Positions 4,443-62,137 of a stretch of DNA of 64,000 nt are shown one piece after another. Origin of the DNA: Lachnospiraceae bacterium (lineage in GTDB: Bacteria > Bacillota > Clostridia > Lachnospirales > Lachnospiraceae); the NCBI GenBank assembly GCA_017553505.1, contig JAFZLD010000003.1, positions 62,001 through 126,000 on the forward strand. The letters run 5' to 3'. The notes under the pieces were generated by a model that was not told the origin of the DNA, did no database searches, and was given only the letters and a program-made list of their open reading frames with translations. A program made the position numbers and the translations under genes. Position 1 is the first letter of the stretch. Every line of letters starts with the position of its first letter.

Positions 4443-5246
4443 TTACTCGATGTTGAGCTTATATTTAAGCACAAGGCGTGTGGCTACGTACTCGATAGCG
4501 TATATTACCACGTAGTAGATAATCGTAGTAAGAAGGACTGAGGAGAGCGTCTCTGCCAAAATGTCCATATCGTAAATGCCGATAAGCGAATTTTTGAAAC
4601 CGATACTCGCAAAGATGGAGCTGATGGTTCTTGAAAGAATAAGGTGACCGATAAAAGCAAGGAACGCACCTAAAATTCTGTGATTGGGCAAAAGCTGACC
4701 GAGGGTAATGCAGAAGAAAATAACTATCTGCGAACCGAAGAGTGCCACAAAAACGGTAAGGATAATAATCAATACACCATTCTTGGCGAGCATATATGTG
4801 CGGATTAACTCCCAGCCATCGCTGATAAACTTAAGTACATCGGGTAAAGCAATGTTGCCTACGAATAAAGGTAAGAAGGAGACAACAAATGCAAGAGCCG
4901 ACAAAATTATTACAGCGGCACCGGCCAAAAGCTTGCTGATAAGGTGCATGTCATGTGTAACAGGGAGAGTAAGATAGAAATATCCTCTGTCTGACATGAG
5001 TGACTTGTGGTAATTAAGCGCAATCATAATATATACTGCGAATCCGCATCCCAAAAGGGAAATAACATATACAAAAGCAATTACGAAGACCAGAATAGAA
5101 GCAATGATATTACTGCCTGCGCCGTCGAAGCTAAAGATTTCGACGCATATTCTCAAAGCAATCGATGAACCGATAAGCACTGCAAAGAGCGGTAAAACAA
5201 AGCGGCACAATGCCTTTAAGTCGTATTTAATCAATTTACCTAACAT
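4443..5246 (-). CDS. ABC-2 type permease subunit
   Basis: A 267-residue polytopic protein with about six membrane helices and the layout of ABC-2 permeases found with YtrA-like regulators (opening LIKYDLKALCRFVLPLFAVL). It overlaps the upstream ATPase gene by seven bases, which implies translational coupling and one complex. The substrate cannot be read from sequence. In this class the operon usually answers cell-envelope stress or antimicrobial peptides. It is the last gene of a three-gene leftward operon. Confidence 0.8.
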   Translation of the reverse strand: MLGKLIKYDLKALCRFVLPLFAVLIGSSIALRICVEIFSFDGAGSNIIASILVFVIAFVYVISLLGCGFAVYIMIALNYHKSLMSDRGYFYLTLPVTHDMHLISKLLAGAAVIILSALAFVVSFLPLFVGNIALPDVLKFISDGWELIRTYMLAKNGVLIIILTVFVALFGSQIVIFFCITLGQLLPNHRILGAFLAFIGHLILSRTISSIFASIGFKNSLIGIYDMDILAETLSSVLLTTIIYYVVIYAIEYVATRLVLKYKLNIE

Positions 5247-5938
5247 GCGAATACCTCCCTGAACAAAGCATCAACGGATTTGCCGCGCTTTTCTCTGATG
5301 TTGTCTACGGTGTCATTAAGTACGAGGGTGCCTTCTTTGAGGAAGAGGGCTCTGTCGAGGGTGCTCTCAACATCCTGAATAAGGTGGGTTGAAATAAGCA
5401 CTGCGGCTTCCTCGTTGTAATTCTGTAAGATGGTTCTTAAGATGTAATCTCTTGCTGCGGGATCGACGCCGCCGATGGGCTCATCTAAGCAGTAAAGTTC
5501 GGCTTCACGAGCCATGGCAAGAATTAACTGAACCTTTTCTCTGTTACCCTTTGAAAGAGTCTTGTAAGTCTTCTTCTCATCAAGGTGAAGATCTGCAAGC
5601 ATGTTTCTTGCTTTCTCCCTGTTAAAGTCTGTGAAGAAATCACAGTACATCTTAACAAGGTCATCGATTCTCATCCAGTCGGGAAGAGCACATCTCTCGG
5701 GAAGGTACGAAGTAATTCTCTTACTGTTAACTCCGGGCTTCTCACCGTTAATCAAAATAATGCCCGATGTGGGGGTAAGTAATCCGTTAATCATTTTAAT
5801 GAAAGTGGTCTTGCCGCTTCCGTTGGGGCCAAGTAAGCCGATTATCTGACCTTTTTCAAGTGTAAGGTCTAAGTGGTCTACCGCGGTGTCTGCGCCGTAA
5901 CGCTTGGTCAATTCGCGGGCTTCAACAATTATACTCAT
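5240..5938 (-). CDS. ABC transporter ATP-binding protein
   Basis: A 232-residue cytoplasmic ATPase. It shows Walker A GPNGSGKTT, a Q-loop region, a degenerate signature LSKGNREKVQL (LSxG followed by charged residues, as in ABC-2 exporters), Walker B LYCLDEPIGGVD and the switch histidine in STHL. It overlaps the regulator gene by four bases (ATGA) and the permease gene by seven. A ribosome site AAAGGAGG lies inside the end of the regulator gene. It powers the permease encoded next to it. Confidence 0.92.
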   Translation of the reverse strand: MSIIVEARELTKRYGADTAVDHLDLTLEKGQIIGLLGPNGSGKTTFIKMINGLLTPTSGIILINGEKPGVNSKRITSYLPERCALPDWMRIDDLVKMYCDFFTDFNREKARNMLADLHLDEKKTYKTLSKGNREKVQLILAMAREAELYCLDEPIGGVDPAARDYILRTILQNYNEEAAVLISTHLIQDVESTLDRALFLKEGTLVLNDTVDNIREKRGKSVDALFREVFAC

Positions 5939-6297
5939 AATTCCTCCTTTACTTTCGAAAGAAAATCTGCCGCTTCATTGCGGTTATAGCCTAAACTTGC
6001 CATCTTCTTTAAATAATTGTCCGCATGTTCTTTGGCCAGATCTTCACGTAATTTATAAATCATCTGACTGTCTTCGGTAATGAAGCGCCCCGCAGTCCTC
6101 TGTGCACACACGATTCCGCTTCGCTCAAGTTCCGCAAAAGCACGCTGCACGGTATTAGGGTTAACTCCTGCCTCGGTAGCTATATCTCTTACCGAAGGAA
6201 ACTTATCGCCGGGCCTGTAAGTACCGTTGGCAATTCGTAAGCACATCTGCTCGGTTAGCTGTAAGTAGATGGGCTTGTCTTCTGTAAAGTCCCACAT
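5935..6297 (-). CDS. GntR-family (YtrA subfamily) transcriptional regulator
   Basis: The protein has 120 residues: an N-terminal winged helix-turn-helix (YLQLTEQMCLRIANGTYRPGDKFPSVRDIATEAGVNPNTVQRAFAELERSGIV pattern, residues about 11-70) and a short helical tail instead of a ligand-binding domain. This is the YtrA type, which normally represses its own operon with the ABC genes behind it. A near-perfect inverted repeat lies 34 bases upstream of its start and is the likely operator. Ribosome site AGGAG is well placed. Confidence 0.9.
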   Translation of the reverse strand: MWDFTEDKPIYLQLTEQMCLRIANGTYRPGDKFPSVRDIATEAGVNPNTVQRAFAELERSGIVCAQRTAGRFITEDSQMIYKLREDLAKEHADNYLKKMASLGYNRNEAADFLSKVKEEL

Positions 6298-6447: not shown

Positions 6448-6476
6448 TTGACATATATATCTATGCAATATATACT
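6448..6476 (+). promoter_or_regulatory. Consensus sigma-A promoter of the RiPP cluster
   Basis: TTGACA at 6448-6453 and TATACT at 6471-6476 with a 17-base spacer. Transcription should begin near 6483, leaving a leader of about 170 bases before the first maturase. I found no supported reading frame in the leader; it contains two copies of a short CAAGCAAT repeat (near 6520 and 6540). Confidence 0.75.
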
Positions 6477-6655
6477 AGTGTCTAACATGAGTTGATGTGT
6501 TGCATAAGTACGAAATACAAGCAATCTGGGGTGACTTGCAAGCAATGATGACATATGTATAAATAGTAATAGAGACTATACGGCGCAAATGCACACAATA
6601 ATCACATGTAGTAGATACAACATATTGCGAATGAGGATTGTACGAAGGGGTTTAT

Positions 6656-7942
6656 ATGGGTAAAGATACTTTGTGTTTCTCAAAGACTGCGAAATTCCTG
6701 TTTGATGAAGGGCAGGTAGTGGCTGTAAACCGATTTAGTGGTAAGTGGATGAGATTTTCAAGGGAATGCTATGAATATTTGCTGAAGGGCATTGACGCAG
6801 GACTTTCTGCTGATGGATTTTTGGAGTGCTTTATGGATGAGAATGACAAAGCATATATCCAAAAACTTATTGACGGATTACAAAGAATTGGCGTCGTGAC
6901 AGACGTAGCTCAAAGAGAGAGGGAAGAAGAACCATATCTGGAAAGTGTTCAGTTTTCTTTGACGAACAGGTGTAATTTACAGTGTAAGCACTGTATTGCA
7001 AGTGCTACGGGAATGGCCGGTGAAGACCCTTTGAGTACAGACGACATAAAGACTATTATCGATAAACTTGTGTCTTGCCGCGTGAAGACTATTATTTTGT
7101 CGGGTGGAGAGCCCTTGGCAAGAAAAGATTTTTTGGAAATACTTCGTTATATAAAAAAGGCAGACAAAAAAATTGAGATTTCACTTATGACGAATGCCTT
7201 GCTGATTACAGAGAGCAACGTCAGGGAGATTGTTGATTGTGTAGAGGATGTTGATATCAGCCTTGATGGTTACGATGAAGAAACCTGTAGCAGAATCAGA
7301 GGCAAAAATGTATACGGGCGTGTGCTGAAAAGTATCGAATTACTTCAAAAGAACGGGATGAGTAAGATTGCCCTTTCGATGGTTTCTCTCGGAAATGATG
7401 TGGAAAGCGACCGAAAGTTTAACGAGCTATGTAAGAGATTAAATGTCACTCCGATGATAAGAAGGCTTTCTTACATGGGAAGAGCCAAAGAAAATGAAGA
7501 ATACTTGCGAAGCTTGGAAAAGAATACTCAATTAACGGAGATGGCAGAGATTCCCGCCGAGAAGGCAAGGAGTGCTACCAAAGCATGCTCATGCAAAGCC
7601 GGAATTCGAGTAATAAATATAGATGAATGCGGAGACATATATCCGTGCAATACCTTTACTGCATGTATGAAGAAAATTGGTAACGTTATTGAAATAGATT
7701 CTTTGTATGACTTTTTGAAAGGGCGCATGAATTCGACTGATGATAACGAAATGTCGTTTTTCAAATTCAATCCGTACTACGAAGAAATCTGTAAGGAGTG
7801 CAATCTTCGATATTTTTGCTGGACGTGTCCATATGCAACAATGGATTACTTGAATGAAAACGCCGATTATTCCCGTTATTGTGAGGGAATGAAGGCTTTC
7901 CTGACTCCCATTATCTGGGGAGAGAAGTATGAACGGGTGTAA
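6656..7942 (+). CDS. Radical SAM/SPASM peptide maturase with N-terminal RRE-like domain
   Basis: A 428-residue enzyme. Residues 1-85 look like a PqqD-type winged-helix precursor-recognition element. Residues about 98-300 are a radical SAM barrel with the 4Fe-4S motif C106-x3-C110-x2-C113 and GGEP. The C-terminal third is a cysteine-rich SPASM region (ACSCKAG, GDIYPC, CKEC, CWTC). Such enzymes install thioether or carbon-carbon crosslinks in precursor peptides. The frame extends to a TTG at 6638, but the ATG at 6656 follows GAAGGGG and is preferred. It is first in an eight-gene operon, and the precursor gene lies two genes downstream. The reaction type cannot be decided from sequence. Confidence 0.88.
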   Translation: MGKDTLCFSKTAKFLFDEGQVVAVNRFSGKWMRFSRECYEYLLKGIDAGLSADGFLECFMDENDKAYIQKLIDGLQRIGVVTDVAQREREEEPYLESVQFSLTNRCNLQCKHCIASATGMAGEDPLSTDDIKTIIDKLVSCRVKTIILSGGEPLARKDFLEILRYIKKADKKIEISLMTNALLITESNVREIVDCVEDVDISLDGYDEETCSRIRGKNVYGRVLKSIELLQKNGMSKIALSMVSLGNDVESDRKFNELCKRLNVTPMIRRLSYMGRAKENEEYLRSLEKNTQLTEMAEIPAEKARSATKACSCKAGIRVINIDECGDIYPCNTFTACMKKIGNVIEIDSLYDFLKGRMNSTDDNEMSFFKFNPYYEEICKECNLRYFCWTCPYATMDYLNENADYSRYCEGMKAFLTPIIWGEKYERV

Positions 7943-7947
7943 GTGGT

Positions 7948-8982
7948 ATGAAAAAGACGTCTTTCACCATAGTAGTTACCACAGAGTGTAATTTGAACTG
8001 TACTTATTGCTATGAAAAACATTTTAACAGGGCAGTAATGACTCGTGAAGTTGCTGAAAAAACTGTGGAATTTATCAAAAACAAGATAAAGGAAAACAAA
8101 CTTGAGTATGTCATTATTCGATTTCACGGCGGAGAACCGTTATTAAATACAGAAGTAATCAAATTTATCATGGATGAACTTGAGACACAGCCATGCAAGA
8201 TAGGTTACTTCATGACGACGAACGCAACGTTAATAAAAGAAGAAATGTTGCCTTTTCTTCGCAAAATTGATGCACTAAGCGTGAGCATGGACGGAACGGA
8301 AGAAGAACACGACAGAAACAGAATCGATAAAGGCGGAAAAGGAACATATCAAAGAGTCCTTGAAAAAGTGAAGCTGCTTCTTGAATATATGCCCAATTTG
8401 ACTGCAAGAATGACTGTCACTCCTGACACATATAAGAACATATATACCAATTTTATAAGCCTTTCGGAGTTGGGAATAAGAAATATAGATCCTTTTTTGG
8501 ACTTTACATCCGATGTGTGGACGAGTGAAATGCTCGCCGAATATATGGATGAAATGAAGAAGGTGGCAATCTATATCAAAGAAAAGGAAAAAGAAAATAT
8601 AACCATAAGGACGGCGATGATTGGTACTGCCACAACAAAGACAAAGAATACTTTGTGCGGTGGCGGTAAGACTTCTTTTTCCATTACGCCGGAAGGGAAC
8701 ATATATCCGTGCATGGAAGTTGCTTTCAATAAGGCGTTTCTACTTGGCAATGTTGAGGCGGGATGCGATAATTGTGAGCTTCTTGAAGAAATAGAGAAGG
8801 TGGGGCATGAAAGAAACAAGTCATGCGACGGTTGCGGCAGATATGATTATTGCATGGTGACCAGATGCAAAATAGTAAACTATGCACATACGGGAGACTA
8901 TAACTTGCCCAAGCCGATAATGTGCGCCAATGAGCATATTAAGTTAGGCTTGGAAAAGTATTTGATTAACTTGACCATATAA
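7948..8982 (+). CDS. Second radical SAM/SPASM maturase
   Basis: A 344-residue enzyme that lacks the N-terminal recognition domain and begins almost at the barrel. It shows C14-x3-C18-x2-C21-Y and FHGGEPLL, the style of anaerobic sulfatase-maturase-like enzymes. The C-terminal SPASM part is rich in cysteines (CGGGK, GNIYPC, CDNC, CDGCGRYDYC, RCK), enough for two auxiliary clusters. It starts five bases after the first maturase, so the two are probably made together. Having two maturases suggests two modification steps or a heterodimer in which the first binds the leader. Its target is presumably the peptide encoded just downstream. Confidence 0.88.
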   Translation: MKKTSFTIVVTTECNLNCTYCYEKHFNRAVMTREVAEKTVEFIKNKIKENKLEYVIIRFHGGEPLLNTEVIKFIMDELETQPCKIGYFMTTNATLIKEEMLPFLRKIDALSVSMDGTEEEHDRNRIDKGGKGTYQRVLEKVKLLLEYMPNLTARMTVTPDTYKNIYTNFISLSELGIRNIDPFLDFTSDVWTSEMLAEYMDEMKKVAIYIKEKEKENITIRTAMIGTATTKTKNTLCGGGKTSFSITPEGNIYPCMEVAFNKAFLLGNVEAGCDNCELLEEIEKVGHERNKSCDGCGRYDYCMVTRCKIVNYAHTGDYNLPKPIMCANEHIKLGLEKYLINLTI

Positions 8983-9024
8983 TCATATGGAAATATGGAA
9001 GTTTTGAGGAAAGGAGGAAAAATT

Positions 9025-9198
9025 ATGTTGAAGATTGAAAAGATCGAGGACAAGAGCCTTAACCTCGATGTTCAGGGCCAGGGTTGCTGGGATGACTGCT
9101 TCATTGGCGAACATTGGGAGGCAAAGTCTGACTTCAAGACAAACGGTTGTTGCTGGCACAATGACAACTACACTGCAGCATCCTGCATCATTTTCTAG
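9025..9198 (+). CDS. RiPP precursor peptide, cysteine-rich core
   Basis: A 57-residue peptide starting at the ATG 9025, six bases after a perfect AAAGGAGG site; the longer frame from 8995 lacks one. Residues 1-17 are charged and cysteine-free (leader-like), ending near VQGQG. The core holds five cysteines (21, 25, 42, 43, 54) in blocks GCWDDC and GCCWHND and a C-terminal SCIIF. Cys-Trp pairs and Trp-x-Asp/Asn triplets fit thioether (sacti/ranthipeptide) or three-residue cyclophane chemistry. Its codons are C/G-ending, unlike the AT-rich maturase genes, which suggests high expression. I do not recognise it as a named RiPP class. Confidence 0.8.
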   Translation: MLKIEKIEDKSLNLDVQGQGCWDDCFIGEHWEAKSDFKTNGCCWHNDNYTAASCIIF

Positions 9199-9221
9199 GA
9201 TAGGTGTGGCACAAGATGCCG

Positions 9222-9251
9222 AGGTGCTCTATAATAAGTTATAGAGCACCT
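9222..9251 (+). other. Perfect hairpin behind the precursor gene
   Basis: A 13-base-pair perfect stem (AGGTGCTCTATAA / TTATAGAGCACCT) with a TAAG loop, 23 bases after the precursor stop. There is no long T run, so it probably stops only part of transcription or protects the 3' end of the precursor mRNA. Either effect would keep precursor above exporter levels. Confidence 0.7.
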
Positions 9252-9289
9252 TCCAATGGTAAAACATTATAATATGCACGGGGGATAAT

Positions 9290-10354
9290 ATGTGCTTTAT
9301 AATTCGAAATAAATTATGCAATATTGTAAAAAATCCCATATATGCCATAGGCATAGTAGTGATGCTAGCATTTGTATATGTTGAATGTAGCAGATATTTG
9401 GAGGTTAGATACTTTACTGATGATTCTCAGATAATAACACTTGACGAGTCGGAAGTTGGCGAAGCTGATGTGATGGATGGATACATTCCTATGAGCGAGA
9501 AAGAACGATTTGATAGTGGCTTGTCTGAACTTAAGAATGACTTGACGTATATAGGATTGCCTGAAACTGAGGCAGAGGAAATATGCAGTGAAGCCGGCAG
9601 AATGGATATGAGGGAAGCTATAGAATATCTGGGACAGAAATGTAGCTTCTTGGCTAATGTTTCAAGCTATTTCTATAAAGATGATGCTAAAAAGGGAACG
9701 GCCGAGGCGGTCAATTCATACATAAAAAGCGCTTTGGCACGAGAAGACTACATGGACTATTTCGGTCGAAAGTTCGCCGATTATCTGGGGACCGTGTTTG
9801 CTTTCTTTTGTTTGATACTTTTTCCGTTCTATTTTGGATCGGATTGCAAGAAAGATATCTACGAACTTCTTCATACCAAGCCTTTGTCCGGTAAGAGATA
9901 TATAGTTTCTCAAGCTCTTGGCAGCATACTTGCGGGGCTGTTGGCTGTTGCGGTAATAACGCTTGTGTTTCAGGGAATTGTTTTCTTCAGAAAGGGAAGC
10001 TTTGATTTTGCTGCAGATACCCTACGGATATGGAAGTATTCACTTTGGTGCATCATTCCGGGAATTGTTTTTGTTTCGGCAATTTTTCTTTTGGCAAGTG
10101 TTACCTTTAAGTCACCGTTTCCGGCGATTCCACCGGTTTTTCTGCTGATTTTATATTCAAACTCCGGTGTGAAAAATGTTGAGGGCTCATTTGCTTATCT
10201 GCACCGTCCGGGTTCGATTTTGATAAGGTATCCCGAGCTGTTTTTCGAAACGAAAATTTCGGATCGGTTCTATGCATATCAAGCAGGACTCGTTGTTGTC
10301 GGATTGCTGATAATAATGCTTGCAACGGTAGTATGGGAAAAGAAAAGAGTGTAA
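9290..10354 (+). CDS. ABC-2-like membrane subunit of the RiPP cluster
   Basis: A 354-residue membrane protein. One N-terminal helix (about 17-37) is followed by a 125-residue extracytoplasmic, acidic, helical domain and then about five membrane helices from residue 165 onward. This is the shape of ABC-2 permeases with a large first loop. The region YELLHTKPLSGKRYIVSQALGS is typical of the cytoplasmic coupling segment. It probably pairs with the second permease and the ATPase at the end of the operon. That complex may give self-protection against the mature peptide, an inference from the context only. Confidence 0.7.
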   Translation: MCFIIRNKLCNIVKNPIYAIGIVVMLAFVYVECSRYLEVRYFTDDSQIITLDESEVGEADVMDGYIPMSEKERFDSGLSELKNDLTYIGLPETEAEEICSEAGRMDMREAIEYLGQKCSFLANVSSYFYKDDAKKGTAEAVNSYIKSALAREDYMDYFGRKFADYLGTVFAFFCLILFPFYFGSDCKKDIYELLHTKPLSGKRYIVSQALGSILAGLLAVAVITLVFQGIVFFRKGSFDFAADTLRIWKYSLWCIIPGIVFVSAIFLLASVTFKSPFPAIPPVFLLILYSNSGVKNVEGSFAYLHRPGSILIRYPELFFETKISDRFYAYQAGLVVVGLLIIMLATVVWEKKRV

Positions 10355-10361
10355 TAAAGAT

Positions 10362-11021
10362 ATGGGATGTTCGTTATTAAGAAAGGTTAAAACGTACATA
10401 GGGGTATCGCTTCCTTGGTATATTTGTGCCCCTGTCATTATGTTTGCTCTTGTCTTCCCCATAGTATTCGGGTGCGAAACTTATGAAGATATTGGTGTCA
10501 TGTTAGACAGGTGCATTAGCTTCCTGGCGATTTTGACCTTTTCAAATGTTTATCATGTTGAGTTACAGCTTAGAACATCCGAAGTATACAGTCTCTTGCC
10601 CAAGGGCAGAAAAAGGGCAGATATTTTAAAAAGAATATTTGTGCGATTTTTATTTCTGACTGTCATTGTGCTTGTCTGCTTTGCGGGATATACATTAAAA
10701 GGAGTGCATACATATGCGGATCAGGATACGGGCGTTGTGTGTGCGCAGGCTTTTTTTTCTATTGTGGCTGTAATGCTTTTTTTTGGAGCGATAAGTTTTT
10801 GGGCTGTAAATCTGACCGGCAGTATGGCTGTCGGAGTCGGAATAAGTATTGCAGTCTGGATGATTCTTGTTTCGGCTTTGGCAGCAGGACTTCCCGCACT
10901 GATTAATGTTTTTGCATATGGTGCTGCGAAAGACTGGTATATTGGGAAAATTACGGCAATAGCAGCGGCTGTTTTGTTTTTCATAGCGGGAACAGTGGCA
11001 ATAGATAACAGGAAAAAGTAA
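10362..11021 (+). CDS. Second membrane subunit of the RiPP cluster
   Basis: A 219-residue protein with six hydrophobic helices and the same topology as small ABC-2 permeases; the segment VYSLLPKGRKRADILKRIF is the likely cytoplasmic coupling loop. It starts eight bases after the preceding permease gene and ends four bases before the protease gene. With the larger permease it can form a heterodimer for the ATPase encoded at 13790. No close family is recognised. Confidence 0.65.
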   Translation: MGCSLLRKVKTYIGVSLPWYICAPVIMFALVFPIVFGCETYEDIGVMLDRCISFLAILTFSNVYHVELQLRTSEVYSLLPKGRKRADILKRIFVRFLFLTVIVLVCFAGYTLKGVHTYADQDTGVVCAQAFFSIVAVMLFFGAISFWAVNLTGSMAVGVGISIAVWMILVSALAAGLPALINVFAYGAAKDWYIGKITAIAAAVLFFIAGTVAIDNRKK

Positions 11022-11024
11022 GAC

Positions 11025-12017
11025 ATGAGTAACGGGGCGGCTTGTAAGGTTGCAATAGTTGACAGCGGAATAGATTTAAACTTGTATGAAAGCCATGTGG
11101 TTAAATATGTTGAATATGCAGAGAATGCCGGAAATGAAGGTGAATATGATTCAAACGGCCACGGCACACTTTGTACTTCTGCAATGCTGTCTGTTAATCC
11201 CAACCTGCAATTGGTGGTAATAAAGGTACTTAATGAAAAAAATATGTGCTCCGACGAACGATTGCTAAGAGCACTGAATCTATTAAAAGATGTAGATGCA
11301 GATATTATAAATTTAAGCCTTGCAACACATTCGACGGAGTCATTTGAACGATACAAAAAAGTGGTGGCGGAACTGACGGATCAGGGGAAGGTTGTTATTG
11401 CGGCCACTGCAAACGGGAACAAGGATTCGTTACTATCCGGATTGGATAGGACAATAGGAGTATACGGAAATCTTTTTTGTGCTGCCAAAGACTTTTGGTA
11501 TCAGAAGGGGAATGCAGTTCAATGCGTTGCGGACAGTTTGCCTTACCTATACAGAGGTCGTCATGGAGAATATGAGCTTTTTGGCGGAAACAGCAAGGCT
11601 ACAGCCATTTTTTCGGGAATTGTATCACTGCATATGGATGAGCTGAAGGCTTGTAATTTTGAAGAAAAAGAAATAATCCTTCAAAGGATGGCCAAAAGGC
11701 AATCCTGGGTCAAAGGAGAGATTTGCGCGGATCCCAAAATGATTGAAGAATGCAACATCGAGCCGGTTAGAGACGAACTTTACTGGAAAGTTGCGGAAGT
11801 AATGGCAGGAAAATTCGCGGTAGGCGTAGAGGATATCGTTAATCGGAGCGATAAGCGTTTATATGAATGGGGGTTAACACGTTACAACGCGTTTGACATA
11901 GTAGAGGCATTGGAAAGAGAAACAGGAACTAAATTGCCATATTCGAAAATAAACTTTTTCTGGTTTGGGTCGCTGGATGCTCTTTGCAACAATATAAGAA
12001 TGGTAAAAGCGGTTTGA
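11025..12017 (+). CDS. Cytoplasmic subtilisin-like (S8) protease of the RiPP cluster
   Basis: A 330-residue serine protease of the subtilase clan without signal peptide or propeptide. The triad is visible as D13 (IVDSGI), H46 (NGHGT) and S190, with oxyanion Asn130 (ATANG). The serine motif reads GGNSKATAIFSG instead of the usual GTSMATPHVAG. Residues about 215-330 form an extra helical domain of unknown role. Because the exporter lacks a C39 peptidase domain, this enzyme is the best candidate for removing the leader peptide inside the cell before export. It is tightly packed between the permease and exporter genes. Confidence 0.82.
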   Translation: MSNGAACKVAIVDSGIDLNLYESHVVKYVEYAENAGNEGEYDSNGHGTLCTSAMLSVNPNLQLVVIKVLNEKNMCSDERLLRALNLLKDVDADIINLSLATHSTESFERYKKVVAELTDQGKVVIAATANGNKDSLLSGLDRTIGVYGNLFCAAKDFWYQKGNAVQCVADSLPYLYRGRHGEYELFGGNSKATAIFSGIVSLHMDELKACNFEEKEIILQRMAKRQSWVKGEICADPKMIEECNIEPVRDELYWKVAEVMAGKFAVGVEDIVNRSDKRLYEWGLTRYNAFDIVEALERETGTKLPYSKINFFWFGSLDALCNNIRMVKAV

Positions 12018-12023
12018 GGGTTT

Positions 12024-13766
12024 ATGAATGGCAACGGCTATAAAATAATTTGGAAATACGTTAAGGACATTTATATTAAAAGCAATCTCAAAATCAGTTT
12101 GTCTGTTTTTGTGTTATCTGCAATTAAGATTTTTGGAGTGCTGATTCCTCCGATTTATATCGTTAAGATAATGGATAAGGCAATCCCAAATAATGACGGG
12201 AAAAATATACTTTTATACATTGGCATAATTCTTTTTTTTACAATTTTTGATGCAGTGTTAGGTGTTATATTGCGAAAGCTTTACAACGAAATGAGTAAGA
12301 ATACCTGCATTAAATATCAAAGAAAATGCCTTGAGCATTTATTCAGACTTGATGGCAAGTATTTAAGTAACAGTCGCGTCGGTGAAAAACTGGTGACGAT
12401 GATGAATGATGTGTCTCAGCTTAAAACTTTGACTTCATCGGCTGTTTTTGATTTTGTACTTGATTCGATAACGGCGATAGTTATGCTGATTTTTCTCGCA
12501 AGAATCAAGCTGGATATGCTTTTGATGATTTTGTGCATTCTTCCGGTTATTTACTTAAGCCAGCGATACTTTCAAAAGAAGGGCAGAGAAAAGGCCGCTA
12601 AAGCAAGAGATACACAGAGCAGTTATGCGGATGTACTTCAGACGATAACCACAAGTACAATTCCCTGCATATTGAGTAACGCTAAGTCCTATTTCTTAAA
12701 AAAGAATGACGAAAGAATAATTGAATCGGAGAATTATACCAATGAATTAAATATGGTATATGCCAAGAATTCCGGTGTTTTAAGCTTCTTATCAGCCATG
12801 TTCATTATAACGGTACTTGGCGTGGGCGGATTTAAAGTAATGAGGAACACTTTGTCCATAGGCGGATTGATAGCGTTCAATATGTATTCGCAGAAATTGG
12901 TTGTTCCGATACTTAAAGTCTCCAATATGATTATGACGCTACAGACTGTGGTTGTTTCGATGGAACGCCTTGAGGCATTTATGGCAGAGAAAGAAGTGGA
13001 GCCTCGTAACTTTAATCCCAGAGTGGTTATGGGTAAAGAAAGCAGTGAGATAAGTTTTGAAAATGTTTCTTTTAGCTATGAAGAAAAGCCGATTTTGAAG
13101 GATATATCGTTGAAGTTTGAGAAAGGTTGTTACAACGTTGTTGTGGGTGAAAGCGGATGCGGTAAATCGACGCTGACGATGCTTCTGTACAGAATATGGA
13201 ACGTACAGGATGGATTGATTAAAATTAACGGGCATGACTGCAAAGAGTTTTCGGTAGACAATCTTAGGAATAGCATAACGATAGTTGGGCAGGATTCCTT
13301 TCTTTTTAACGATACGATATTTAACAATATTGCTATGGGTAGTGGATTTGATAAGGATAGGGTGGAAAAATGCTGCCGGATTGCCTGCATACATGACTAT
13401 ATCATGTCGCTTCCGGAGCAGTACGAAAGTCTTGTGGGCGATAGCGGTGTAAAGCTTTCCGGCGGTGAAAAACAGAGAATCTGTATAGCAAGAGCACTCT
13501 TACAAGATACTCCCATACTGGTGTTGGACGAAGCAACTTCAGCACTTGACCAGCTTACGGAGAGGAAGGTTCTTGATAATATTTCAGAATGCATCAAGGA
13601 TAGGATTTTTATCCTAATAACGCACAGACTGGCAAGCATAGTTGATGCGGATAATATTGTTGTTTTAAAAGACGGTGAAGTGGAAGCTTGTGGAAGTCAT
13701 CACGAGCTGATGAGGATTTCGCCGCAATACAAGACGATGTTTGAACGAAAAGAATGCATTGAATAG
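12024..13766 (+). CDS. Peptide-export ABC transporter (membrane domain plus ATPase)
   Basis: A 580-residue half-transporter. Six membrane helices occupy about residues 20-310, and the nucleotide-binding domain about 335-575 has Walker A GESGCGKST, signature LSGGEKQR, Walker B ILVLDEATSALD and switch THRLASI. No N-terminal C39 protease domain is present, so it should export an already trimmed peptide. It starts seven bases after the protease gene, with GAGGG as ribosome site. Homodimers of this class export bacteriocins, lipids or modified peptides; the RiPP product is the natural cargo here. Confidence 0.9.
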   Translation: MNGNGYKIIWKYVKDIYIKSNLKISLSVFVLSAIKIFGVLIPPIYIVKIMDKAIPNNDGKNILLYIGIILFFTIFDAVLGVILRKLYNEMSKNTCIKYQRKCLEHLFRLDGKYLSNSRVGEKLVTMMNDVSQLKTLTSSAVFDFVLDSITAIVMLIFLARIKLDMLLMILCILPVIYLSQRYFQKKGREKAAKARDTQSSYADVLQTITTSTIPCILSNAKSYFLKKNDERIIESENYTNELNMVYAKNSGVLSFLSAMFIITVLGVGGFKVMRNTLSIGGLIAFNMYSQKLVVPILKVSNMIMTLQTVVVSMERLEAFMAEKEVEPRNFNPRVVMGKESSEISFENVSFSYEEKPILKDISLKFEKGCYNVVVGESGCGKSTLTMLLYRIWNVQDGLIKINGHDCKEFSVDNLRNSITIVGQDSFLFNDTIFNNIAMGSGFDKDRVEKCCRIACIHDYIMSLPEQYESLVGDSGVKLSGGEKQRICIARALLQDTPILVLDEATSALDQLTERKVLDNISECIKDRIFILITHRLASIVDADNIVVLKDGEVEACGSHHELMRISPQYKTMFERKECIE

Positions 13767-13789
13767 TGCAATTTCCGGAGGAATAATTC

Positions 13790-14665
13790 ATGAGCATTAC
13801 GATTGAAAACGTCTCAAAAAGGTTCAAGGAGAACATGGCACTTGACAATGTAAGCCTTGAAATCGGAGAAGGAATATACGGACTTTTGGGAGAGAACGGC
13901 GCGGGAAAGACAACGCTTATGCGAATCCTTACCACTTTGCTCGACCCTACTGAGGGAAGTGTGACTATATGCGGGCAGAAACTATGTACCGGCAATCGCG
14001 AGGAGATTAAGAAATTGATTGGCTATCTTCCACAGGAGTTGGGACTTTATCCGTCGCTTACCGTCGTTGAAACCCTTGAATATCTGGGCGGACTTTGCGG
14101 GCTGACCAAAGAAGAACGCAAAGAAAGAATAAGCATGCTTCTTGAACAGACCAACATGTATGAGCATCGTAATAAAAAGAACAGGCAGTTATCAGGCGGA
14201 ATGAAACGAAGAGTCGGTCTGATGCAGGCAATGCTTACAGACCCGAAAGTTCTTATTGTGGATGAGCCCACTACGGGACTGGATCCTGAAGAAAGAATAA
14301 GAATCAGAAATCTATTGTCTGATTTTTCAAAGGGAAGAATGATTATACTTTCTACTCACGTAGTAGAAGATTTGACTGCCACTTGTTTCAGACTCGGGGT
14401 GCTCAAAAAAGGCCGTGTTATGTATCAGGGTTCTTTGACTGATATGATGAAAGCAGCCGAAGGACACGTATTTCGGACGGTAGTCGCGGACGAGAGAAAA
14501 ATGGAAATCCTCAGAAATAAATACAGAATCGTAAACAGTGTTCCCGGAGAAAACGGGTATAAAGTCAGATATATTGCCATGGATACTGCCGATGTAGCGG
14601 ATTCCACAAGCGCAGAGGTATCTTTGGAGGATGCATATATTTATTTAAACAGTATGAACACTTGA
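13790..14665 (+). CDS. ABC ATPase, last gene of the RiPP cluster
   Basis: A 291-residue ATPase of the CcmA/DRA type: Walker A GENGAGKTT, signature LSGGMKRRVG, Walker B LIVDEPTTGLD, switch STHV, and a C-terminal domain of about 75 residues. It has no membrane domain, so it must act with separate permeases. The two ABC-2-like proteins encoded at 9290 and 10362 are the likely partners. In bacteriocin clusters such three-part pumps usually give producer immunity. It has its own GGAGG site and is followed by the operon's terminator. Confidence 0.88.
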   Translation: MSITIENVSKRFKENMALDNVSLEIGEGIYGLLGENGAGKTTLMRILTTLLDPTEGSVTICGQKLCTGNREEIKKLIGYLPQELGLYPSLTVVETLEYLGGLCGLTKEERKERISMLLEQTNMYEHRNKKNRQLSGGMKRRVGLMQAMLTDPKVLIVDEPTTGLDPEERIRIRNLLSDFSKGRMIILSTHVVEDLTATCFRLGVLKKGRVMYQGSLTDMMKAAEGHVFRTVVADERKMEILRNKYRIVNSVPGENGYKVRYIAMDTADVADSTSAEVSLEDAYIYLNSMNT

Positions 14666-14673
14666 AAAATCTA

Positions 14674-14720
14674 GCCCGAATGATTATTAATACCATAATC
14701 ATTCGGGCGCTCTTATTTTT
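14674..14720 (+). terminator. Terminator of the RiPP operon
   Basis: Perfect 14-base-pair stem GCCCGAATGATTAT / ATAATCATTCGGGC followed by GCTCTTATTTTT. It marks the right end of the cluster. Confidence 0.85.
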
Positions 14721-16208: not shown

Positions 16209-17573
16209 ATGGGATTGTTTGAATTACTGCTTTTGGCGGTGGGACTTTCTATGGATGCTTTTGCGGTGTCCATTTGTAAGGGGCTTGCCGTTAAGAAAAT
16301 TACTGCAAAAGAATATTTGTTATGCGGCGTATGGTTCGGAGGCTTTCAGGGACTGATGCCGCTCATAGGCTATCTGGTGGGGTCAAGGTTTGAAAGGTTT
16401 ATAAGCGTGGTGGCTCCGTGGGTAGCTTTTATATTGCTTGCGCTTATCGGCGGCAATATGGTCAAAGAAGCCTTCGCTCCGCCTGAAGAGGTGAAGCCGG
16501 AGTTCGATGTTAAGACCATGTTCATGATGGCTGTGGCCACGAGTATCGATGCGCTTGCAGTCGGTATTACTTTTGTGGCGGTGCCCGTTAAGGTTGTAGC
16601 CGGCGGCAGTTTCATTAATGTAATCTTCGCAGTGGTTACGATAGCGATTACCACATGCATTATCTCCATGATAGGCGTTAAGATAGGACATATCTTCGGT
16701 ACCAGATATAAGTCCGGTTCCGAGATTATGGGTGGAACGATTCTTATATTTATAGGTCTTCGCGCACTGTTGTCTCATCTTGACAGGTCGCAGGCTCTGT
16801 CGGATTCCGAGACGATTTTCGGAATGCTGATTCCTCTTATAGGAACGCTTCTCGGCGCTGCGGTAGTATACGCCAAGAAGAATGAGCTTACCAAGGATTT
16901 AAGGATGATACTTGTGGGACTGACTTCGGGTATCATGATTTCAATAGCAGTGTGGGGAATGATTGAACCCGCAGTTAAGGGAGTATCCGGCGATGTTAAG
17001 ACAGGGATAATTCTTGTGGTCGCTTGCTTTTGCGGAGGTGTGCTGCTTCAGTATATTCTGGACAGTGTTATACCTCACACGCATGCATATGCCGACCTCA
17101 CGGAGGGTCCTAAGTGTGGACTTGATACGGGCATGAAAGTTATGCTTACGGAAGTTATTCATCATATCCCCGAGGGTATCGCACTTGGCGCAATTTATGC
17201 GGGCCATTTCCTCGAGACCGCGTGGATTTCGGCTTCAACGGCGCTGGTACTTGCAATCGCCATCGCTATTCAGAATATCCCCGAGGCGCTCTTCGTGTCA
17301 CTTCCGCTTCGCGAGAAGGGCACCAATACCGGCAAGGCTTTCTTTATGGGCGTGGTATCCGGCATGCCGATACCGCTTCTCGGTATTATTACGGTTATAG
17401 TTGCGCTCCTGTTTCCGAGCATTTTGCCTTATGTGATGGCACTTGCGGGCGGCGCACTGATATATACAACGGTCGAGGAAATCCCGGGACTTGGGTCCAA
17501 GAAAGAAAACGACAAGGGTGCGCTGGCATTTGTTGTGGGATTTGCGATTGTGATGTTTATGATTTTCTTTTGA
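16209..17573 (+). CDS. MntP-ZIP fusion metal transporter
   Basis: One uninterrupted frame of 454 residues. Residues 1-190 match MntP manganese exporters: LSMDAFAVSICKGLAVKK with Asp16, and SIDALAVGITF with Asp114, the two conserved repeats. Residues about 200-454 match ZIP-family divalent metal transporters: HHIPEGIALG (318-327), QNIPEALFVSLPLR (from 355) and the last helices with AGGALIYTTVEEIPG. About six plus eight membrane helices are predicted. MntP proteins pump Mn2+ out, and ZIP proteins usually carry Zn2+, Fe2+ or Mn2+ inward. AAGGAG precedes the ATG. No yybP-ykoY riboswitch fits in the 32 bases upstream. Confidence 0.88.
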   Translation: MGLFELLLLAVGLSMDAFAVSICKGLAVKKITAKEYLLCGVWFGGFQGLMPLIGYLVGSRFERFISVVAPWVAFILLALIGGNMVKEAFAPPEEVKPEFDVKTMFMMAVATSIDALAVGITFVAVPVKVVAGGSFINVIFAVVTIAITTCIISMIGVKIGHIFGTRYKSGSEIMGGTILIFIGLRALLSHLDRSQALSDSETIFGMLIPLIGTLLGAAVVYAKKNELTKDLRMILVGLTSGIMISIAVWGMIEPAVKGVSGDVKTGIILVVACFCGGVLLQYILDSVIPHTHAYADLTEGPKCGLDTGMKVMLTEVIHHIPEGIALGAIYAGHFLETAWISASTALVLAIAIAIQNIPEALFVSLPLREKGTNTGKAFFMGVVSGMPIPLLGIITVIVALLFPSILPYVMALAGGALIYTTVEEIPGLGSKKENDKGALAFVVGFAIVMFMIFF

Positions 17574-60994: not shown

Positions 60995-61906
60995 ATGCCT
61001 TACGTAATAGGTGCATTAGCAGTAATCTTAGTATTAATTATTATTTCTTGTATTAAAATCGTGCCTCAGGCACAGGCTTTCGTAATTGAAAGACTCGGCG
61101 CTTACCAGGGAACATGGTCCGTAGGTCTTCACTTCAAGGTTCCTTTCCTTGACAGAGTTGCCAAGAGAGTTCTTTTAAAAGAGCAGGTTGTGGACTTCCC
61201 TCCGCAGCCCGTTATCACCAAGGATAACGTTACAATGCAGATTGATACCGTTGTATTCTTCCAGATTACAGACCCTAAGCTCTTCACCTACGGTGTTGAA
61301 GCTCCCATGATTGCAATCGAGAACCTTACAGCTACAACTCTTCGTAACATTATCGGTGATCTTGAACTTGACCAGACACTTACCTCCCGTGAGACCATCA
61401 ACACCAAGATGCGTGCTACACTTGATGAAGCTACCGACCCTTGGGGAATTAAGGTTAACCGTGTGGAAGTTAAGAACATTATGCCTCCCGCAGCTATCCG
61501 TGACGCCATGGAGAAGCAGATGAAGGCAGAACGTGAAAGACGTGAAGCAATCCTTAAGGCAGAAGGTGAAAAGAAGTCCACAGTCCTTGTTGCAGAAGGT
61601 AAGAAAGAATCCGCAATCCTCGAAGCAGAAGCTGAGAAGGCAGCAGCTATTCTCAGAGCTGAAGCTCAGAAGGAAAAGATGATTCGTGAAGCAGAAGGTG
61701 AAGCTGAAGCTATCCTTCGCGTACAGCAGGCTACCGCAGACGGTATCAAGATGATTAAGGATGCAGGTGCTGACGAGTCCGTTATTAAGCTTAGAAGCCT
61801 CGAAGCCTTCGCTAAGGCTGCTGACGGCCAGGCTACCAAGATTATCATTCCTTCGGAAATCCAGGGAATCGCAGGTCTTGCAAAGTCTGTAAAAGAAGTA
61901 TTATAA
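60995..61906 (+). CDS. SPFH/Band 7 (stomatin/QmcA-like) protein
   Basis: A 303-residue protein with one N-terminal membrane helix (2-18), an SPFH domain (VPQAQAFVIERLGAYQGTW, DNVTMQIDTVVFFQITDP, DPWGIKVNRVEVKNI) and a long alanine/glutamate-rich coiled coil (about 170-245). These proteins form oligomeric rings on the inner membrane and regulate proteases and membrane domains. Paired with NfeD as usual in bacteria. Codons are strongly optimised. Confidence 0.94.
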   Translation: MPYVIGALAVILVLIIISCIKIVPQAQAFVIERLGAYQGTWSVGLHFKVPFLDRVAKRVLLKEQVVDFPPQPVITKDNVTMQIDTVVFFQITDPKLFTYGVEAPMIAIENLTATTLRNIIGDLELDQTLTSRETINTKMRATLDEATDPWGIKVNRVEVKNIMPPAAIRDAMEKQMKAERERREAILKAEGEKKSTVLVAEGKKESAILEAEAEKAAAILRAEAQKEKMIREAEGEAEAILRVQQATADGIKMIKDAGADESVIKLRSLEAFAKAADGQATKIIIPSEIQGIAGLAKSVKEVL

Positions 61907-62000: not shown

Positions 62001-62137
62001 CTTTTGCCGATATATCTGAGTTATAGGGGGATGAGAGGCTTATTCTTGTTTACAATTCTCTGATGTTGGGTATATAATCAAATTTGTATCACTTTATTTT
62101 GCTAAAGTGAATGAATGAGTATTTGAGAGGTGTGGCT

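Follow-up and report, generated by a model that had tools for sequence, protein, structure and literature searches.

Among described radical S-adenosylmethionine (SAM) peptide systems, two come closest to the locus treated here. One is the clostridial CcpM/CLI_3235 system of Cys-rich bacteriocins, of which SacP23 is a tested member according to the accessible part of PMC10731318. The other is the maturation of the γ subunit of the dehydrogenase QHNDH, in which, as the available text of PMC8172795 describes it, a radical SAM thioether maturase and a subtilisin-like protease act on a Cys-rich polypeptide. The locus is an eight-gene operon (6656–14665, all genes on the plus strand) arranged around a Cys-rich precursor gene of 57 residues, with two radical SAM/SPASM maturases (rSAM1 and rSAM2). 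It lies in a 64,000-nucleotide stretch (the window; positions 62,001 to 126,000 of contig JAFZLD010000003.1), part of one contig in the 3.13 Mb genome of a Lachnospiraceae bacterium. The operon very probably serves to make a small cysteine-crosslinked peptide, to trim and export it, and to confer resistance to it; that it is, more specifically, an operon for a ribosomally synthesized and post-translationally modified peptide (RiPP) with thioether crosslinks, made by the steps proposed below, we hold to be moderately probable. Tested against PapB, StsB, CcpM and QHNDH the cluster falls outside each of them, and the original prediction likewise assigned it to no named class; its logic is closest to CcpM and QHNDH, like a cross of both.

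Comparison with described systems

The CcpM/CLI_3235 system and the window cluster have in common a short Cys-rich precursor, a SPASM maturase, an ATP-binding cassette (ABC) exporter and a subtilase. Seven TIGR04069 loci were fetched, with their CcpM and TIGR04066 genes assigned by position and size and not by hidden Markov model (HMM); four of them contain an open reading frame (ORF) like the window subtilase and four one like the exporter. Judged by eye, the small Cys-bearing ORFs beside the CcpM-type maturase mostly start with MKKLGK (six of the seven loci, one a variant). The CcpM/CLI_3235 system has a single maturase where the window cluster has a pair, and its carrier-like part, in the window the tail of the protease, has a gene of its own; in addition, no TIGR04066 protein was recognised in the window cluster. 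TIGR04066 and the CLI_3235-type precursor gave no NCBIfam match in the window precursor, permeases or subtilase, nor among the best 25 matches of the maturases and ABC proteins. The CLI_3235-type family likewise had no match among ten further precursors, and the stand-alone TIGR04069 protein had none in genome G000 at E 1e-4.

QHNDH maturation differs from the window operon, which has two maturases and, among the eight genes scanned, no visible dehydrogenase subunit. The window subtilase is closest to QhpE, one of its five NCBIfam matches, at 82.9 bits against a cut-off of 165, and QhpD stands second for rSAM2 at 142.7 bits against a cut-off of 453. The QhpE model has 219 positions, and the carrier-protein-like tail of the window protease falls outside it.

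The likeness to PapB and freyrasin consists of rSAM2, which is nearest to PapB, and of a core in which Cys is followed by Asp or Glu. Six CX3D motifs are present there, whereas the window cluster features one conserved CX2DC, a second maturase and a subtilase. In place of repeated CX3D motifs the window precursor has one CX3E (C25–E29) and one CX3D (C43–D47); these were tried as PapB motifs and dropped, as the acids are missing in relatives and C43 is replaced by Ser in the related locus L017. Thuricin CD and other two-maturase sactipeptides resemble the window cluster in having two unlike radical SAM enzymes per peptide cluster. According to the accessible part of PMC12093266, TrnC and TrnD of thuricin CD both have RiPP recognition element (RRE) regions and TrnD has a truncated SPASM domain; in the window, by contrast, only rSAM1 is RRE-like in its predicted structure, and both enzymes have the full set of cluster cysteines. 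No description of this cluster group was recognised in the literature, judged by titles and the beginnings of abstracts among the matches listed, which is weak evidence of absence.

A recurring cluster core

The core of rSAM1 (6656–7942, with an in-frame TTG upstream at 6638), rSAM2 (7948–8982) and precursor (9025–9198) recurs in 15 further loci (designated by L numbers) from Clostridia and one Paenibacillus, and 12 of the 15 also have the subtilase and the exporter. The related clusters are a recognisable group, a variant type of radical SAM RiPP cluster. The window cluster is 98.9–99.5% identical, gene by gene, to L017 of Lachnospiraceae bacterium YSD2013, and this near-identity indicates that the source of the window is a close relative of that bacterium. 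L007 has the complete set of eight, arranged as in the window. rSAM1, rSAM2, precursor, subtilase and exporter are present in L006, L020, L022, L025, L098, L099, L100 and L101, in some with ABC genes between or beside them. Peptostreptococcus sp. D1 (L024) has the same five core genes and a third radical SAM gene; its product (11187–12422 of that locus) is rSAM1-like and is encoded between rSAM2 and the precursor. L142, the second cluster of the M8S5 genome, has the order precursor–subtilase–exporter–rSAM1–rSAM2. L021 is cut off by a contig border, and in L023 (Paenibacillus tritici) about 6 kb separate the subtilase, encoded on the opposite strand, from the core. Genome G131 (L008) has the subtilase, exporter, permeases and ATPase, with no rSAM1 match genome-wide at E 1e-30.

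A species-genome collection was scanned with the rSAM1 alignment and the best 80 loci were taken. Eleven were examined as candidates (L017–L026 and L045), 68 served as motif control only, and L027 was left out. The L018 sequence stops shortly after rSAM1. In L026 and L045 the rSAM1 homologues are broken, and nearby ORFs resemble recombinase or transposase by eye. In profile searches 4 of 397 family genomes contained the subtilase (E 1e-15) and 8 of 391 class genomes contained rSAM2 (E 1e-40), both counts including the own genome; in three of these eight (G492, G567 and G629) there is no rSAM1 beside rSAM2 in the fetched stretch. A phylum-wide rSAM1 search at a strict E 1e-70 returned only the own genome (1 of 398).

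Pairwise distances are correlated between rSAM1 and rSAM2 (r 0.66, 15 loci), between rSAM1 and the subtilase (0.71, 13 loci) and between rSAM2 and the subtilase (0.52, 13 loci). Such correlations are expected of a jointly inherited unit; host descent alone could also give them.

The precursors share a CxxDC motif

Twenty precursors were gathered from 16 loci, 19 of them within a cluster near the rSAM pair. The motif C-x-x-D-C is present in all 20, in one as C-x-x-E-C. It was found in 19 of 19 scored precursors, where 0.44 were expected after shuffling, and the L142 precursor adds the twentieth; in the 68 control loci, C-x-x-D/E-C occurs in 15 of 4440 small ORFs. The choice of 16 of the 20 precursors was blind to the motif and was based on similarity to the window precursor, on a leader pattern, or on being a Cys-bearing small ORF directly 3' of rSAM2. 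The other picks are weaker: L101 was filtered on the motif, L142 on the motif or three Cys, and the L023 and L024 precursors were chosen by eye among Cys-bearing small ORFs.

In the window precursor the presumed leader comprises residues 1–20 (9025–9084) and the core residues 21–57 (9085–9195), with C21-W-D-D24-C25 and C42. A Gln stands two residues ahead of the first Cys in 15 of the 20 precursors. A lone Cys precedes the motif in L024, L098 and L100, and elsewhere at least one Cys follows it. Apart from CxxDC the cores are variable; the L007 precursor is 68% identical to that of the window. The window precursor has no NCBIfam match, and ten others gave no match in nine cases and a weak match to an unrelated family in one. 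The general features of a RiPP cluster (a short precursor with a conserved leader and a variable core, and an adjoining maturase) are all present. In L025, from Ruminococcus RGIG7433, four precursor genes lie in tandem (11302–12337 of that locus), with a longer spacing from the motif to the next Cys.

The two maturases

Both maturases match Pfam Radical_SAM, in agreement with the two radical SAM enzymes originally predicted. The ten cluster cysteines are kept in 15 of 15 aligned proteins of rSAM2 and also of rSAM1, save C388 of the latter (14 of 15). The best NCBIfam match of rSAM1 is StsB (NF045574), at 117.2 bits against a cut-off of 625; StsB was matched by all 12 rSAM1 proteins scanned and gives the lowest best E-value among the families. 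For rSAM2 the best match is PapB (NF047865), at 196.7 bits against a cut-off of 340, matched by all ten members scanned and with the lowest best E-value in the table; CcpM (TIGR04068) reaches 118.9 bits where 500 are required. The best-matching solved sequence for rSAM2 is PDB entry 5wgg, which we take to be CteB.

The radical SAM domain begins the rSAM2 protein directly. In rSAM1 it is preceded by an RRE-like region (residues 1–90, 6656–6925), for which an AlphaFold model predicts strands at residues 5–8, 12–17, 20–25 and 31–35, followed by helices at 36–47, 52–56 and 62–77, with a pLDDT of 83–95 for the block. The modelled succession of strands and three helices is that of a PqqD-like RRE. 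An RRE-like N-terminus in the first maturase only, as had been claimed, is favoured by the model, while no sequence profile matched the region as an RRE. The fold comparison of rSAM1 spanned mainly residues 88–414 and barely covered this region.

The subtilase and its carrier-protein-like tail

The S8 protein (11025–12017) consists of a subtilase domain (11025–11714), matched by Pfam Peptidase_S8, and a C-terminal carrier-protein-like domain (11763–12014). The residues D13, H46, N130 and S190 are kept in 14 of 14 aligned S8 proteins, and a simple hydropathy scan reveals no hydrophobic segments. The S8 fold search spanned mainly residues 1–230, and thus the subtilase part; the Foldseek matches are likewise subtilases.

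PDB carrier proteins align across the C-terminal domain. At the aligned cofactor column, however, none of the 14 S8 proteins has a serine and two have a gap; in L098 and L142 a serine lies one residue off the column, in a poorly alignable region. The tail therefore lacks the phosphopantetheine serine in a D-S-L motif that defines an acyl carrier protein. The isolated tail was tested for the carrier fold in the S8 proteins other than those of L022, L023, L024, L025, L101 and L142. Sequence profiles point to a remote kinship between the tail and TIGR04069, the stand-alone protein of the CcpM/CLI_3235 system: profile comparison with TIGR04069 proteins gives a probability of 95.3 and E 2.4e-8, against 0.4 in a control with the precursor alignment. 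In an HMM scan of four S8 tails TIGR04069 did not appear as a match, and the kinship came only through profile–profile comparison.

Exporter and presumed protective ABC modules

The exporter (12024–13766) matches Pfam ABC_membrane and ABC_tran, with no C39 or other peptidase domain; QhpF of the QHNDH pathway is an exporter as well. The lone ATPase (13790–14665, Pfam ABC_tran) is the probable partner of permease 1 (9290–10354), which has homologues in L007, L008, L017 and L019, and of permease 2 (10362–11021), which gene neighbourhoods and hydropathy assign as the partner of permease 1. A subtilase, a C39-less exporter and a lone ATPase were part of the original prediction and are borne out by these domain matches. 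Its two ABC-2-like permeases fare less evenly: each shows five hydrophobic segments in a simple hydropathy scan, but the match of permease 1 to Pfam ABC-2 stays under the cut-off, and no Pfam model matches permease 2. Neither has an NCBIfam match.

The ABC-2-like pair with its ATPase is present in the window, L017, L007, L019 and L008, and in part in L099. In L022 a related ATPase stands beside two permease-sized genes without Pfam match. A permease of 790–857 residues, with an FtsX match in all six cases, is found in L006, L020, L023, L024, L025 and L100, together with a short ATPase. L021, truncated by the contig border, counts in neither group. The ABC module is swapped while the maturation core stays, as self-protection predicts; given these modules, the product is likely to be an antimicrobial.

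Proposed pathway and alternatives

In the proposed pathway the RRE-like domain of rSAM1 would bind the leader, and rSAM2, without an RRE, would modify the precursor thus bound, probably as part of a complex with rSAM1. A precedent for two unlike maturases working as one unit is offered by TrnC and TrnD; they form a complex in which the RRE regions are predicted to be chiefly what holds the partners together (PMC12093266, accessible part), though there each enzyme has such a region. rSAM2 would most likely join C21 to the β-carbon of D24, giving a non-alpha thioether between Cys and Asp like those of PapB and QhpD. This type of link is suggested by the presence of CxxDC in all precursors together with the PapB/QhpD kinship of rSAM2, and a C21–D24 thioether is the most economical interpretation, since the first Cys stands two residues before the acid and the acid varies only to Glu. 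PapB itself, in the portion of PMC9413430 available, links Cys to Asp or Glu across 0–6 intervening residues and gives no product when Asp precedes Cys. C25 and the outlying Cys would be left for rSAM1 or for a disulphide; most likely rSAM1 would add a second crosslink using C25 or the outlying C42, which is the least certain step. The cytoplasmic subtilase would then remove the leader near Q19-G20-C21, its carrier-protein-like tail serving as a docking module and not as an acyl carrier; QHNDH maturation offers a precedent for a thioether maturase alongside a subtilisin-like protease (PMC8172795, accessible part). The exporter, which has no peptidase of its own, would secrete the trimmed peptide, and the ATPase and the two permeases would shield the producer. 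The division of labour is that of the original prediction, and is supported by the conserved neighbourhoods, the intact catalytic residues and the exchange of ABC modules between relatives, with the chemistry at the level of a proposal.

Several observations count against this pathway. No NCBIfam family matches the window maturases at cut-off (among the best 25 of 89 and of 98 matches), and because the listed matches stay below the cut-offs the analogy of rSAM2 to PapB is distant; rSAM2 also scores well against QhpD, CXXX-repeat, nif11 and SCIFF maturases. Nor do the other window proteins reach an NCBIfam cut-off with any of their listed matches. The RRE of rSAM1 is a feature of the model. Relatives do not share the CX3E and CX3D pairs seen in the window precursor, and in L017 Ser stands for C43. 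In the 19 kb fetched for L019, the first M8S5 cluster, neither a subtilase nor an exporter is seen; in L023 the candidate precursor is encoded on the other strand, more than 3 kb away from the maturases; and neither protective ABC type is found in the fetched stretch of L098, L101 or L142.

It is conceivable, though unlikely, that both maturases make alpha-carbon thioethers of the sactipeptide type, as in thuricin CD and streptosactin, with one enzyme perhaps mainly structural and the Asp needed for recognition or folding. The uniform StsB match of the rSAM1 proteins would agree with this, as would thuricin CD, which needs both TrnC and TrnD although only the TrnC chemistry is strictly essential (PMC12093266, accessible part), and the further two-enzyme sactipeptide clusters mentioned in the available text of PMC8172795. 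The top score of rSAM2, however, belongs to a ranthipeptide maturase, PapB, the acid is found in 20 of 20 precursors, once as Glu, and both enzymes hold the complete cysteine set, unlike TrnD with its shortened SPASM domain (PMC12093266, same part).

The kinship of the protease with QhpE, and of rSAM2 with QhpD in second place, could also be read as a sign that the product is no antimicrobial but a peptide cofactor with a redox or metal-binding role, made as the QHNDH γ subunit is; QhpD puts thioethers into that subunit, and QhpE to QhpG are also required (PMC8172795, accessible part). We regard this as quite improbable: no dehydrogenase subunit is among the matches listed for the eight operon proteins, the cores vary outside CxxDC, and many loci have exchangeable ABC modules of the self-protection kind. 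A secreted signalling peptide, sensed or imported by the extra ABC module, would fit the export and the variable cores; with no sensor kinase or receptor regulator among the eight genes, and ABC efflux-type modules as frequent companions, there is very little to recommend it.

Whether the group is a distinct RiPP class is a more tentative matter, and we would rather doubt than assert it. Such a class would have an RRE maturase that serves an RRE-less partner, a CxxDC motif that becomes compact fused rings (the Cys-to-Asp thioether and a crosslink of the neighbouring Cys), and a carrier fold, its cofactor serine lost, as the recognition tail of the leader protease, an alternative to an RRE in docking the substrate or the complex. 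The group of relatives, the CxxDC motif, the protease tail, the hairpin behind the precursor (see below) and the kinship with CcpM/CLI_3235 and QHNDH go beyond the original prediction. What is gained is a coherent radical SAM peptide cluster group with a simple, testable chemical signature, CxxDC. The group suggests that one recognition domain can serve two maturases. It also leads one to ask why, in two separate clostridial peptide systems, the leader protease is accompanied by a carrier fold that apparently cannot be loaded.

Possible transcription signals and neighbouring genes

The eight genes lie where they were originally placed, and they are indeed nearly all less than 50 bases apart (six of seven gaps), the exception being 91 bases behind the precursor. 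The consensus promoter claimed upstream corresponds to a promoter-like site of sigma-70 type, TTGACA-17-TATACT (6448–6476, plus strand), with 11 of 12 consensus matches; it is the best of 24 sites in the scanned region, and its hexamers are identical in the near-identical L017 cluster. The claimed strong terminator corresponds to a terminator-like 14-pair hairpin followed by a T-rich tail (14674–14708, plus strand). Such sites are no commoner than in shuffled sequence (24 promoter-like sites against 26.1 expected, and 6 terminator-like sites against 5.9). A ribosome binding site, AGGAGG (9010–9019, plus strand), precedes the precursor gene.

Directly 3' of the precursor gene lies another 14-pair hairpin (9221–9252, plus strand; z -4.2 in the folding of the 110-base flank). 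Of 15 loci, 11 have a flank behind the last precursor gene (110 bases, 100 shuffles each) that folds with z below -2; L006, L019, L024 and L099 are the exceptions. The hairpin is a possible transcript stabiliser or partial terminator and might raise the precursor dose, a suggestion drawn from precursor flanks, which alone were folded. Rfam gave no match at gathering score in the region or in the whole window.

Directly upstream, in divergent orientation (4443–6297, minus strand), are genes for a GntR-type regulator, an ABC ATPase and a protein of 267 residues that matches no Pfam family; the latter two also adjoin the cluster in L017. Further downstream, a 454-residue protein (16209–17573, plus strand) fuses Mntp (manganese efflux pump) and ZIP zinc transporter domains, both above the Pfam cut-off. 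A 33-base tandem repeat of 3.5 copies (61523–61639) is located within the gene of a Band 7 (SPFH) protein.

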